Of a stretch of 38,152 bases of DNA, positions 30,141-36,670 are shown in pieces. Every line of letters begins with the position of its first letter. Within the stretch, counting starts at the first letter, position 1. This stretch comes from an uncultured Rubrobacteraceae bacterium. Its GTDB lineage: Bacteria; Actinomycetota; Rubrobacteria; Rubrobacterales; Rubrobacteraceae. Under the pieces are notes generated by a model. The model had not been told where the DNA came from, did not search any database, and saw nothing but the letters and a program-made list of their open reading frames with translations. Made by a program: the position numbers and the translations under genes. The stretch lies in contig CADCVH010000045.1 in the NCBI GenBank assembly GCA_902806085.1, forward strand, positions 1-38,152, in the 5' to 3' direction.

Positions 30141-31715
30141 ATGCAGGGTGAGAGGTTGGGCGGGGACACGACCGCCGGAAAACTGGAGGGGCTGGAGGAG
30201 CTGCGCGAGAGGGCTGCCCACCCCGCCTCCGAGCGGGCCGTGGAGCGGCAGCGCGAGAAGGGCAAGATGACCGCCCGGGAGCGCGTAGAGGCGCTCCTGG
30301 ACGAGGGGACGTTCGTCGAGCTCGACCGGTACAGGGTGCACCGTTCGGACAACTTCGGGCTGGGGGAGAACAGGCCGCTCGGGGACGGCGTGGTTACCGG
30401 GTACGGGGAGGTCATGGGCCGGAAGGTCTGCGTCTTCTCGCAGGACTTTACGGTGTTCGGGGGGTCCCTCGGCGAGGTCTACGCCGAGAAGATCTGCAAG
30501 GTCATGGACCTTGCCCTCAGCACCGGGTGCCCCGTCGTCGGGATCAACGACTCCGGCGGGGCGAGGATACAGGAGGGCGTCGTCTCGCTGGCGGGGTACG
30601 CGGACATATTCCACAGGAACGTGCTCGCCTCGGGGGTCGTGCCCCAGATCTCGGTCGTCATGGGGCCCTGCGCCGGGGGCGCGGTCTACTCGCCGGCCAT
30701 AACGGACTTCGTCTTCATGGTCGAGGAGACGAGCCACATGTTCATCACCGGCCCGGATGTCATAAGGAGCGTCACGGGCGAGGAGGTTAGCCAGGAGGAA
30801 CTCGGCGGGGCCGTTACCCACAACACCAAGAGCGGTGTCGCCCACTTCTCCTCACCGGACGAGGAGACGTGCCTCTCGGACGTGCGTTTCCTGCTCTCCT
30901 TCCTGCCGGAGAATAACCTGGAGACCGCCCCGTCCTATCCCCCGGCCGACGACGCAGGAAGGATGGAGGAGGACCTGGCGTCGCTCGTGCCGGACTCGCC
31001 GCGCCAACCCTACGACATCAGGGAGGCGGTGGGCCTCGTCGTGGACGACGGCGAGTTCTTCGAGGTGCAGGAGGGCTGGGCGCAGAACCTCGTGGTCGGG
31101 TTCGCCAGGCTCGACGGTCACGCCATCGGGGTGGTGGGGAACCAGCCCATGGTGCTCGCAGGTACTCTCGACATAGACGCGAGCGTCAAGGGGGCGCGGT
31201 TCGTGAGGTTCTGCGACGCGTTCAACATTCCCTTGCTCACCTTCGTGGACGTGCCCGGGTTCATGCCGGGGACGGGGCAGGAGTGGGGTGGGATCATCCG
31301 CCACGGCGCCAAGCTCCTCTACGCCTTCTCCGAGGCCACCGTGCCCAAGATGACCGTCATAACGAGAAAAGCTTACGGTGGGGCCTACGACGTCATGAAC
31401 TCCAAGCACATAGGCGCGGACGTCAACGTCGCGTGGCCGACCGGCGAGGTCGCGGTGATGGGGGCGTCCGCGGCGGTGGGCATCATCCACCGCAGGCGCA
31501 TAGCCGACGCCGAGGACCCGGAGGCCGAGCGCGAGGCCCTGATAGCGGACTACGAGGAGAAGTTCAACAACCCGATGGTCGCGGCGAAGATGGGCTTTAT
31601 AGACGACGTCATAGACCCGCGGGAGACGAGGCCCTACCTCATCAGGGCCCTCTCGATGGTGCGTACCAAGCGCCCCGAGCGCCCGCCGCGCAAGCACGGG
31701 AACATCCCCCTCTGA
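30141..31715 (+). CDS. pccB: acyl-CoA carboxylase carboxyltransferase (beta) subunit, propionyl-CoA carboxylase type
   Basis: The 524-residue subunit transfers carboxyl from biotin to acetyl- or propionyl-CoA. The family is obvious: [19 protein letters not shown] near residue 43, [20 protein letters not shown], the first oxyanion site in [12 protein letters not shown] and [14 protein letters not shown], and the second in [29 protein letters not shown]. It ends HGNIPL, like PccB/MmdA. Substrate choice is not determined, but this type usually takes propionyl-CoA. MeaB elsewhere in the window fits a propionyl-to-methylmalonyl route. It is first in an operon with an epsilon-like subunit and the biotin carboxylase/carrier subunit. 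The ATG is probably read leaderless. Confidence 0.95.
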
Positions 31716-31720
31716 GTACC

Positions 31721-32281
31721 GTGGCGGGGAGGGGAATAGCCGGGATACGCAGGCTCTGGCCGAGGACGGGCGGGGCGTGGGCGCTGGTGGTCCTCGGCGT
31801 CCTGACGTTCCTGGCGCTGGACGTGCTCACTTTGTGGGGGTCGGGCCTCGCGCTGGACCTCCTGATCTTCCTCTCCGGCATGCTCGCCGGCCTGGCCGTC
31901 TCCCGACTGGCTACCTACCCCTTCAGGAGGCGCTCGGGTGGTTCCGGCCTCGGGAGGACCGTCGGGCTCTTCGCGGGGCTTGCCTCGGTCTTTGCGATCG
32001 TCTTCGGCGGCACGGCCCTCGCCGGCATCCCGCCTTACCCCACCGCCGAGGGCGGCAACGCGGGGACCATGATCTACGGCCTGGCCCTGGGGTTCCTGGT
32101 CGGCGTGCCGGGCGGCCTGGTACGGGCCGAGGACAGGCCGCGACCGCCATTACCGGGTTCGAACCTCAAGGTCGTCGCCGTGGTCTTTGGAACGGTGGCC
32201 GCGTTGTTCGGGCTGCTCTTCGCGCTCTTCCTGCTGATCGAGTTCGTCGCCGTGCCCCTGATCCGGACCCTCGCCGCATGA
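31721..32281 (+). CDS. multi-pass membrane protein of unknown function in the carboxylase operon
   Basis: The 186-residue protein starts at GTG, 5 nt after the pccB-like stop, without its own strong ribosome site, so coupling is likely. I do not recognise the family. It has about five hydrophobic helices (roughly residues 19-38, 42-65, 80-103, 115-135, 150-177). The loop after helix 3 carries GIPPYPTAEGGNAG, and there is no obvious catalytic motif. Its stop overlaps the next ATG (ATGA). Its position between the carboxyltransferase and the epsilon-like gene is unusual: it might tether the cytosolic carboxylase to the membrane, or be a neutral passenger (inference). Confidence 0.7.
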   Translation: MAGRGIAGIRRLWPRTGGAWALVVLGVLTFLALDVLTLWGSGLALDLLIFLSGMLAGLAVSRLATYPFRRRSGGSGLGRTVGLFAGLASVFAIVFGGTALAGIPPYPTAEGGNAGTMIYGLALGFLVGVPGGLVRAEDRPRPPLPGSNLKVVAVVFGTVAALFGLLFALFLLIEFVAVPLIRTLAA

Positions 32282-32499
32282 CGGCCGGGCGCCGGACCCG
32301 CGTAGAACCGCCCCCGACGCCCGAGGAGGCCGCGGCCATCGTGGCCGCGCTGGGGGTGTTGCGGGGCGAAAAGCCGCGGGCGCAAGTCCCGGTCAGGAGC
32401 CGCTGGCGGTTGGCGGGGTTGCTCGGGCGCCCGGTGCCGCCGGGGATGAAGCTCGAAGGGGCGCTGTGGTCCTACTCCAGTTGGAAGGGTGGTCCCTAG
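32278..32499 (+). CDS. small acyl-CoA carboxylase epsilon-like subunit
   Basis: The 73-residue protein starts at an ATG overlapping the previous stop (ATGA) and ends directly before the GTG of the biotin carboxylase gene. The PPTPEEAAAIVAALGVL segment (about residues 10-26) matches the conserved motif of actinobacterial epsilon subunits (PccE/AccE), which hold alpha and beta together. The C-terminus is rich in Trp (ALWSYSSWKG), as in that family. The N-terminal strand seen in many epsilon subunits is short here. Between the beta and alpha genes is where epsilon genes commonly sit, which supports the call. Confidence 0.7.
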   Translation: MTAGRRTRVEPPPTPEEAAAIVAALGVLRGEKPRAQVPVRSRWRLAGLLGRPVPPGMKLEGALWSYSSWKGGP

Positions 32500-34260
<1,761 letters not shown>

Positions 34261-34272
34261 GACGGAACCGCC

Positions 34273-35373
34273 GTGGTGGAGCACGCCGAAGAGTACGGGT
34301 GGAGCGGCGAGGGGGAGGGCGCCGAGATCCTCGTCTACGCCCCCGACGGCGAGACGGCCGGAAGGGCCTTCGAACACGCCCTCCCGGCCGCCCGCCTCCC
34401 CGGCGTCGAGAGCCCCGTCTTCGCCGCGGCCTCGCCGACGCAATCCGGCCACGTCGCGGCCTCGGCGACGCACGCCGCGCCCGACCTGATCTCACCCCCG
34501 ACCCGCGGCCTGCTACTCGTCGCCGACACAGGTATAGAGAACCTCGGGATGCCCCCAAGGGACGTGGCGGACTTCGTCCTGCGCGGCCTCGCGCAGACGG
34601 GCCTTTCGCTGCCGGTCCTGAACGAGGCCGGGGTGCGGAGGGCATGCGAGGGAGGGGCGGCGGCCGCGGCCGAGGACGGCCTGATAGAGGAGGAAGACCT
34701 GAGGCGCCTCCCGCCCGTCGAGGGCGACCCGGACGCGCTCGGCCGAAGGGCGCTCGCCGCCGGAACGCGCGACTGGGAGGGCCGGTTCGGGTTGGAGGTG
34801 GCGGTGGTGGGGGAGGTGCTGGACGCCGACGGGGCCGAGGCCCTCGACCTCCGCCCCGGGATGCTCGCGCTCGTGGTTCGGGTGGGAGGCGGGGACCTCG
34901 GGCGGCTCGCGTTGGGCCTTCACCGGGATCGGATCTTCACCAGGATAAGGGCCGGCGCGGACCTCGGCGCCGAAGACGACCTGCCCTCAGCACCCGCGGG
35001 GTCCGAAGAGGCGGCCGACCTGCTGGCGGGCATCAGGGCGGCCGCCAACTTCGCCGACGCCCGCGCCGCCAGGGCGGTCTACGCCCTGCGGCGGGTGCTT
35101 AGGAGCGTGGCCGGCGGCCTGGACCTCCGCTCCTCCTGGCGGATCGGCGGCGTAGAAGAGCGCGATGGGTTCCTGGTCCAGCGCAAAGACCTCGCGGCGG
35201 CGGGGGAGGGGGATGCGCTGATCTCGGGTGGTGTGGCGGCGGTCGGGACGGGTAAGATGTGGCGGAGCGCGCCCCCGTTCGGTACGCCGGAGGACGACGG
35301 CCGGTGGCCCTGGGAAGAGGCGGGCCTGCTGGAGAGGTGGGCGGTCCTCGACCCGACCGGAGGAGAGAGCTAG
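34273..35373 (+). CDS. RtcB-like protein lacking the catalytic residues (probable pseudoenzyme)
   Basis: The 366-residue protein starts at GTG, 12 nt after the biotin carboxylase gene. It follows the layout of RtcB RNA ligases: ARLPGVESPV (about residues 40-49), DLISPP before the metal region, then EDGLIEEEDLRRL (134-146), VEGDPDALGRRAL (149-161), GLEVAVVGEVLDADGAEALDLRPGMLALVV (173-202), LLAGIRAAANFADARAARAV (250-269), VEERDGFLVQRKDLA (294-308) and AAVGTGKMW (322-330). The essential sites are gone. The metal Cys/Asp motif (D-x-G-C-G in active enzymes) reads LVADTG. The GNHF histidine site reads GRFG. The HSGSRG histidine site reads RVGGGDLG. The HN site reads RIGG. The C-terminal guanylated HGAGR is replaced by PPFGTPEDDGR. 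The protein is also shorter than the usual 400-480. It therefore probably binds RNA, protein or nothing catalytic. Recognition is from memory of the family. Confidence 0.62.
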   Translation: MVEHAEEYGWSGEGEGAEILVYAPDGETAGRAFEHALPAARLPGVESPVFAAASPTQSGHVAASATHAAPDLISPPTRGLLLVADTGIENLGMPPRDVADFVLRGLAQTGLSLPVLNEAGVRRACEGGAAAAAEDGLIEEEDLRRLPPVEGDPDALGRRALAAGTRDWEGRFGLEVAVVGEVLDADGAEALDLRPGMLALVVRVGGGDLGRLALGLHRDRIFTRIRAGADLGAEDDLPSAPAGSEEAADLLAGIRAAANFADARAARAVYALRRVLRSVAGGLDLRSSWRIGGVEERDGFLVQRKDLAAAGEGDALISGGVAAVGTGKMWRSAPPFGTPEDDGRWPWEEAGLLERWAVLDPTGGES

Positions 35374-35375
35374 AG

Positions 35376-35672
35376 TTGGACTTGCTGATGGTCAGGGACC
35401 GGGCGACGGGCCGTTTCCTGTACACCGAGCGCCTGGAGCGCCGCCAGGGGGAAACCTCCTGGGAGTACGTCCGCCGCAGCGTCCGCAGGGAGGCCCACAT
35501 CCGGGACCACTTCTCCGCCGACACGCAGCAGGTGATAATGGGCTGGGGGGCGGGCTCCGTCGAAGACTTCCTCAGGTCCTACCCCGAATACGGTCCCGAA
35601 TACGGTCCCACCGCCACGAACGGCGAGACGGATGGCGGGCCCGAACCGGAGGGAGAGATTGCTGACCGCTGA
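35376..35672 (+). CDS. unknown 98-residue protein at the end of the carboxylase/RtcB-like operon
   Basis: TTG at 35376 is chosen because GGAGGAGAG lies 7 nt upstream, inside the end of the preceding gene; ATG at 35388 is an alternative. I do not recognise the family. It is a basic, mostly helical, soluble-looking protein: MVRDRATGRFLYTERLERRQGETSWEYVRRSVRREAHIRDHF, then an acidic tail with a short DNA-level direct repeat encoding YGPEYGP (about residues 73-79). It may act with the RtcB-like protein, as both close the operon, but that is inference. The tail overlaps the start of a decayed DUF5654 gene. Confidence 0.55.
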   Translation: MDLLMVRDRATGRFLYTERLERRQGETSWEYVRRSVRREAHIRDHFSADTQQVIMGWGAGSVEDFLRSYPEYGPEYGPTATNGETDGGPEPEGEIADR

Positions 35673-35864
35673 AGTCCTCGACAAGTCCCCTACCCTCATA
35701 ACTACCGCCCTGGGCTTCGTCGTCGCTTCGCCTGGAACACCGCCATCCAGGACCCATTCGACGAGATCTTCGGCCGGGCCGGAGGCGAGCTTGCGGGCCA
35801 GTCCTTCTACGCGATCCTGGTAACCGTCGTCGTCATCCTCGCCACCGAACGCGCGAAAGACTAG
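35659..35864 (+). pseudogene. DUF5654 small membrane protein, frameshifted
   Basis: From TTG 35659 the frame reads LLTAEVLDKSPTLITTALGFVVA. The family then expects LAWNTAIQ, and that continuation (WNTAIQDPFDEIFG, ending FYAILVTVVVILATERAKD) is present in another frame up to the stop at 35862-35864. Inserting one base near 35730 (GCT-TCGCC where GCTCTCGCC would fit) restores a 68-residue DUF5654-like protein. Either the gene is broken by a single-base deletion or there is a sequencing error. DUF5654 proteins are short membrane proteins of unknown function. The start overlaps the previous gene's stop. Confidence 0.7.
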
Positions 35865-35934: not shown

Positions 35935-36435
35935 CTACTTGAAATCTTCCGGGGAGACGCGGTTCATCCAGTCTTTGAACTTGTCCACGACCTCGTCTTC
36001 CGGGGCCTCTTCCATCGCCTCCTCGAACTCGACGCCCGCCTCCTGTATGACCTCGTCGGAGGCGAAGATCTCGGCCCCAGAGCGGATCGCCAACGCTATG
36101 GCGTCGGAGGGACGAGAATCCACCTCGACGGTCTTGCCGTCGAGGTCGAGCCTGATGGTGGCGAAGAAGGTCTGGTCTCTCAAGGCCGTCACCGTGATGC
36201 GCTCCATAGAGGCGCCGAGTTCGTTGACGAGGTTCAGGGCCAGGTCGTGGGTGAGGGGTCTGACGAACTCCTGGTTCTGGAGCTTCATGAGGATCGAACG
36301 CGCTTCGGGTTGGCCGATCCAGATGGGCAGATAGCGGTTTTCGTCCTCGACCTTGAGGATGACGATCGGGCTGGAGGAAAAGAGGTCCATGTTCATGCCG
36401 TAGATGGACATCTTGGTGAAGCCGTCGGCGCTCAC
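35935..36435 (-). CDS. bifunctional nuclease family protein (BFN / DUF151)
   Basis: The 166-residue protein is a member of the DUF151/BFN family: the conserved PIVILKVEDENRYLPIWIGQPEARSILMKLQ (about residues 23-53), then RPLTHDLALNLVNELGASMERITVTALRDQTFFATI, and the family hallmark DSRPSDAIALAIRSGAEIFASDEVI (about 106-130). Plant relatives degrade both RNA and DNA; the bacterial role is unproven. The C-terminal part resembles a UVR-like helical tail (acidic). GTG at 36435 has GAGAGGAG 10 nt upstream. The 5' leader contains a 7-bp hairpin (36457-36473). The promoter is identified further upstream. Confidence 0.9.
   Translation of the reverse strand: MSADGFTKMSIYGMNMDLFSSSPIVILKVEDENRYLPIWIGQPEARSILMKLQNQEFVRPLTHDLALNLVNELGASMERITVTALRDQTFFATIRLDLDGKTVEVDSRPSDAIALAIRSGAEIFASDEVIQEAGVEFEEAMEEAPEDEVVDKFKDWMNRVSPEDFK

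Positions 36436-36593: not shown

Positions 36594-36670
<77 letters not shown>

Follow-up and report, generated by a model that had tools for sequence, protein, structure and literature searches.

A predicted pseudo-ligase of the RtcB superfamily encoded beside acyl-CoA carboxylase genes in the Rubrobacteria

The carboxylase locus and its neighbourhood

The window, the whole 38,152-nucleotide stretch of DNA analyzed here from an uncultured Rubrobacteraceae bacterium, carries a predicted operon for an acyl-CoA carboxylase that also includes a gene for a shortened relative of the RNA ligase RtcB (Table 1). With its carboxyltransferase, epsilon-like, and biotin carboxylase/carrier genes the locus resembles the acyl-CoA carboxylase operons of actinobacteria (AccD, AccE epsilon, AccA3). 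The RtcB-like gene follows the stop codon of the biotin carboxylase/carrier gene by 12 nt on the same strand, as had been stated in the first-pass annotation of this DNA. Between the carboxyltransferase and epsilon-like genes lies an open reading frame for a membrane protein (31736-32281, +) that has no Pfam match; a homologous stretch is found in some relatives (L005, L009). Downstream of the RtcB-like gene are a small conserved open reading frame, with a product of about 86-98 amino acids in the window and at a second locus, L088:2143-2403 (-), and a DUF5654-like small membrane protein (35659-35864, +) that is apparently split over two frames. The latter protein is intact in L024 (PF18898), and its split in the window seems to be a frameshift or an assembly error. 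Beyond the convergent nuclease gene, a tRNA-Ile gene (36594-36670, +) is directly followed by a tyrosine recombinase gene (PF00589; 36772-37932, -). A tRNA gene with an adjacent tyrosine recombinase gene often marks an element inserted there.

Table 1. Genes of the carboxylase locus and segments of the RtcB-like protein, in window coordinates
Feature	Position	Strand	Remarks
Acyl-CoA carboxylase carboxyltransferase subunit (AccD type)	30141..31715	+	PF01039, 654 bits; TIGR01117 below its cut-off; same predicted operon
Acyl-CoA carboxylase epsilon-like subunit	32278..32499	+	PF13822, E 1.2e-4, 23.1 bits, slightly below the cut-off of 25
Biotin carboxylase fused to biotin carrier (AccA type)	32500..34260	+	Directly upstream of the RtcB-fold gene
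RtcB-fold gene (predicted pseudo-ligase)	34273..35373	+	366 aa; GTG start, second GTG directly after it at 34276
Residues 77-87 (TRGLLLVADTG)	34501..34533	+	Strand in place of canonical GFDINCG; Asp and Cys Mn ligands absent
Residues 173-175 (GLE)	34789..34797	+	Canonical SGNHFLE; His ligand absent, preceded by a 4-residue deletion
Residues 202-210 (VRVGGGDLG)	34876..34902	+	Canonical IHSGSRGLG; His and Arg absent
Residues 289-293 (WRIGG)	35137..35151	+	Canonical LAHNNAKFE; HN lost by deletion; W and GG specific to the family, conserved to at least 95%
Residues 331-337 (RSAPPFG)	35263..35283	+	Matched by eye to canonical SSAHGAG (guanylated His)
Residues 344-352 (RWPWEEAGL)	35302..35328	+	C-terminal signature specific to the family, with W347 and E348 invariant
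Small conserved open reading frame	35376..35672	+	About 95-98 aa; next in predicted operon; no family above cut-off
Bifunctional nuclease domain gene	35935..36435	-	Convergent; conserved locus boundary

Descent from RtcB and loss of the ligase site

The product of the RtcB-like gene descends from RtcB and is a member of the RtcB superfamily by descent and fold; its likeness to RtcB exceeds what chance would give. Taken alone, the window protein slightly misses the curated cut-off of the Pfam RtcB profile (PF01139; 23.2 bits against 27, E 4.7e-5), and it matches the RtcB of Pyrococcus horikoshii in the PDB with an E-value of 5.5e-7. Three orthologues scanned singly exceed the Pfam cut-off (37.1, 31.2, and 29.6 bits). 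A family profile built from 27 orthologues aligns with P. horikoshii RtcB (PDB) over profile positions 27-277 (E 2.8e-18). Profile-profile alignment with hhalign extends over 302 columns (residues 2-306; E 9.6e-16) and bears out the original observation of RtcB-like blocks over most of the protein's length. The likeness to the RtcB 3'-5' RNA ligases (PF01139; PH1602 of P. horikoshii, TTHA1785 of Thermus, and human RTCB) thus lies in the fold and in the core blocks of residues ~2-306. Unlike these canonical enzymes, the family is acidic and about 110 residues shorter, mostly in the catalytic loops, several of which are deleted, and in the C-terminal part; the tested Mn ligands and the guanylated histidine are missing as well.

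Structure prediction also points to RtcB. An AlphaFold2 model was built from eight orthologues with no RtcB sequence in the alignment, since adding true RtcBs would have biased the test of the fold. Confidence in the model is low (mean pLDDT 52, pTM 0.53), with a core of approximately residues 77-290 as its better part and the C-terminal 78 residues unresolved. Nevertheless, RtcB entries are the only Foldseek matches at E <= 0.001 (16 chains; best E 3.6e-10), and in structural alignment the ten best matches are RtcB, with Z-scores of 14.8-15.9 over 235-257 residues and the next entries at 6.9 or below. RtcB is therefore the best structural match of this low-confidence, orthologue-only model. 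Mediocre matches to HMG-CoA reductase (Z ~6-7 over ~107 residues) were put down to a widespread arrangement and discounted.

Ligation by RtcB depends on Mn ligands, which in the P. horikoshii enzyme are Asp95, Cys98, His203, His234, and His329, and on a guanylated histidine, His404. Pyrobaculum RtcB becomes ligase-dead when alanine replaces the Cys or two of the His ligands, and the same exchange at the Cys makes the E. coli and human enzymes ligase-dead too (reviewed in PMC10630183). In an alignment of 27 distinct orthologues with eight canonical RtcBs belonging to the same bacterial family, all residues tested are kept by 8 of 8 canonical proteins, whereas none of the five Mn ligands tested, nor the guanylated histidine, is kept in any of the 27 orthologues. 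The equivalents of D95, C98, H329, and N330 (P. horikoshii numbering) fall in deletions, those of H203, H234, and H404 are variable but never His, that of R238 is never Arg, and that of K480 is never Lys. The column of H404 contains Ala, Val, and other residues, and the SAHGAG motif is replaced by SAPPFG, a segment in which the family-specific P334 and F336 are invariant. Placement of the D95/C98 region depends on the aligner, HMMER setting the LLLVAD strand on GYDINCG ungapped whereas MAFFT and hhalign gap it; under all three there is no Asp/Cys ligand pair. Of the VHRKGA block, 26 of 27 orthologues retain the HR, which is QR in the window protein. The first-pass annotation had proposed a catalytically dead RtcB relative in which every metal ligand and the guanylated histidine are replaced; profiles, predicted fold, and family-wide ligand loss strongly support this proposal, with several of the positions being deletions. 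Judged by its residues, the whole family is catalytically dead, and the pseudo-ligase should not perform the RtcB reaction, i.e., Mn-dependent guanylation of histidine and joining of 3'-phosphate and 5'-OH RNA ends.

Distribution and linkage to the carboxylase

Orthologues of the pseudo-ligase, some of them fragments, occur in 12 of 13 genera of the Rubrobacteria and in 34 of the 39 genomes of the class. This count leaves out G016 and G026, which match only by way of canonical RtcB. The single absence counted as a real loss is that in G016, a genome 99% complete. A loss in G026 was rejected, the locus there meeting a contig end with the nuclease gene at the contig start, and absences in the incomplete genomes G004, G032, and G033 were not counted as losses. 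Among approximately 350 sampled actinobacterial genomes outside the class there is no orthologue, only weak matches, nearly all in open frames of RtcB size. These outside matches score at most ~70 bits with the family profile, compared with at least 460 for intact orthologues, and hence there are no intermediate forms. A scan of one-genome-per-species contigs, which reaches close relatives only, returned at least seven loci, each under the name Rubrobacter, Rubrobacteraceae, or Actinobacteria, and no relative was found in the viral contigs searched.

Canonical RtcB has a distribution of its own within the class. The window's genome encodes a second RtcB with canonical motifs (L001:1432-2892, -; G000:C19). 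This gene adjoins one for a DNA polymerase I-like protein. A Pfam search finds canonical RtcB in 9 of 16 genomes examined and fails to find it in the other seven (G010-G013, G022, G028, and G036), all of which are near-complete and carry the pseudo-ligase. The pseudo-ligase is not dependent on canonical RtcB.

The class-wide search recovered 30 loci, of which one is truncated and 29 are informative. A biotin carboxylase gene lies directly upstream on the same strand in 27 of these 29, the other two being without the carboxylase, and the carboxylase-linked loci span nine genera. Between the two genes are 1-46 nt at 24 of the linked loci and 105-246 nt at three. A search of related genomes for the carboxylase and RtcB-like pair had been suggested along with the original annotation, and such conservation means that the pair in the window's genome is not a chance neighbourhood. 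Exceptions occur in both directions, however, and co-presence of pseudo-ligase and carboxylase is not strict. In G016 the carboxyltransferase, epsilon-like, and biotin carboxylase genes and the small open reading frame follow in order, with no room for an RtcB-like gene, and the carboxylase therefore works without the pseudo-ligase in that organism. In G025 and G027 the pseudo-ligase gene stands alone beside the nuclease gene and the carboxylase is gone; what best matches biotin carboxylase and carboxyltransferase in these genomes is in each case a distant paralogue (54 and 36% identity, respectively). Pseudo-ligase and carboxylase are probably partners, though not strictly so.

Selection, alternative explanations, and probable role

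High-GC DNA contains many spurious open reading frames, and the gene might in principle be an overlapping frame or a gene in decay. This pseudogene or artefact explanation is refuted by the breadth of conservation described above together with dN/dS ratios of 0.17-0.33 in eight close pairs, which indicate purifying selection, and it is further opposed by the conserved motifs and significant RtcB homology; its probability is negligible. Constraint persists in the genomes without the carboxylase (dN/dS 0.26 for G025/G027). Conservation reaches 95% or more in 46 alignment columns, of which canonical RtcB does not share 25, so that the constraint is of a new kind rather than a stage of decay. Polar residues occur among these 25, and one might suppose that family-specific positions such as H217, R218, D249, W289, and E348/E349, with H303/R304, form another catalytic site. 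A new enzyme of this sort is improbable. No cluster of such residues could be discerned, as the AlphaFold2 model is unresolved in its C-terminal part, and the pseudo-ligase changes more quickly (mean distance 0.77, vs. 0.31 for the carboxylase), more in the manner of a binding protein. A role as antagonist or helper of canonical RtcB in RNA repair, exerted through RNA binding or mixed oligomers, would draw on the common fold and on the presence of canonical RtcB in the window's genome and in more than half of the relatives examined. The seven genomes with a pseudo-ligase and no canonical RtcB disfavour control of the latter. RNA binding is disfavoured by the strongly acidic character of the family (mean pI 4.6 and net charge -26, vs. 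pI 6.0-7.8 and about neutral for their canonical counterparts in this bacterial family); the window's carboxylase subunits, however, are similarly acidic. This role is accordingly very improbable, and the seven genomes and the acidity together make work of the pseudo-ligase on RNA in general unlikely.

A more serious competitor is persistence by inertia, in which the protein does something that does not involve the carboxylase and an old adjacency survives in a neighbourhood that is rarely rearranged. The independent losses in both directions fit this explanation, as does the position of the G025 and G027 genes beside the convergent nuclease gene, a sign that the whole neighbourhood is stable. 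Against it stand the very tight spacing from the carboxylase gene at most loci and evolutionary rates that track those of biotin carboxylase more than those of the nuclease gene. In partial Mantel tests, the correlation of pseudo-ligase with biotin carboxylase is 0.54 (p 0.0002) when the nuclease gene is controlled for, and the reverse test gives 0.17 (p 0.10). The nuclease gene is short, slow, and very conserved, and with such a control the correlation may reflect shared ancestry only, making it suggestive and no more. Inertia is a fairly plausible explanation of the pair, although not the one we favour.

The favoured explanation, with a probability of roughly 0.6, is a lineage-specific pseudo-ligase that probably serves as a binding or accessory factor and is predicted to be co-expressed with the carboxylase. 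Deletions and substitutions would have abolished the RNA-ligase active site ahead of the divergence of the known members in the Rubrobacteria, while selection kept the core of the fold along with the new set of family-specific residues. The gene is most likely co-transcribed after biotin carboxylase/carrier in the AccD-epsilon-AccA operon, and its product is probably an accessory factor without catalysis of its own, with a protein or a small ligand as what it binds. Binding or scaffolding would most simply concern another product of the operon, and the carboxylase is the likeliest, though not an obligatory, partner. In at least one species the carboxylase does without the pseudo-ligase, and in at least two the pseudo-ligase is of use where the carboxylase is lacking. 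A direct role on this particular carboxylase is somewhat doubtful, and that an RNA-ligase fold was turned, in one bacterial class, into a subunit of acyl-CoA carboxylase with no catalytic part, or into its regulator, can be put forward only tentatively. The first-pass annotation had suggested that assembly or translation of the carboxylase is perhaps controlled in response to RNA or nucleotides. The pair on which this idea was founded is real and conserved, but each of the two has been lost where the other remains, and the specifics of RNA or nucleotide response find no support in an acidic protein whose tested GMP-site residues are gone.

An RtcB relative within a conserved gene pair is also known from the RtcB2-PrfH pairs, in which the RtcB2 ligase is active. 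The partner in those pairs is a release factor, whereas the partner here is a carboxylase and the ligase site is gone. RtcB2 is a bacterial RtcB paralogue encoded next to the gene for release factor PrfH (PMC9223846, PMC1586002). In the open-access literature searched, no RtcB-fold gene is described with actinobacterial acyl-CoA carboxylase operons, and no publication there combines RtcB with a pseudoenzyme or with Rubrobacter. Open-access papers concerning both RtcB and biotin carboxylase describe no such gene pair in their titles or the opening parts of their abstracts. The fold family itself is known; that a lineage-wide RtcB pseudo-ligase in a carboxylase operon was not found in the open-access literature is weak evidence that it is new.

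We know of no earlier pseudoenzyme in the RtcB family, and the protein described here would, if it is such a carboxylase subunit or regulator, be the first known to us, as well as the first tie of RtcB ancestry to fatty-acid precursor metabolism. RtcB is treated and annotated as a family of metal-dependent RNA ligases. As some orthologues exceed the Pfam cut-off, they could be called RNA ligases even though none keeps the residues needed. A pseudo-ligase conserved across a lineage indicates that the RtcB fold can be retained for another purpose, and the position 3' of the biotin carboxylase gene offers a concrete candidate partner. The small conserved open reading frame lies directly 3' of biotin carboxylase in the genome without an RtcB-like gene, and it was not seen at the locus in the genomes without the carboxylase. 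It may therefore be a truer companion of that enzyme than the RtcB-like gene.
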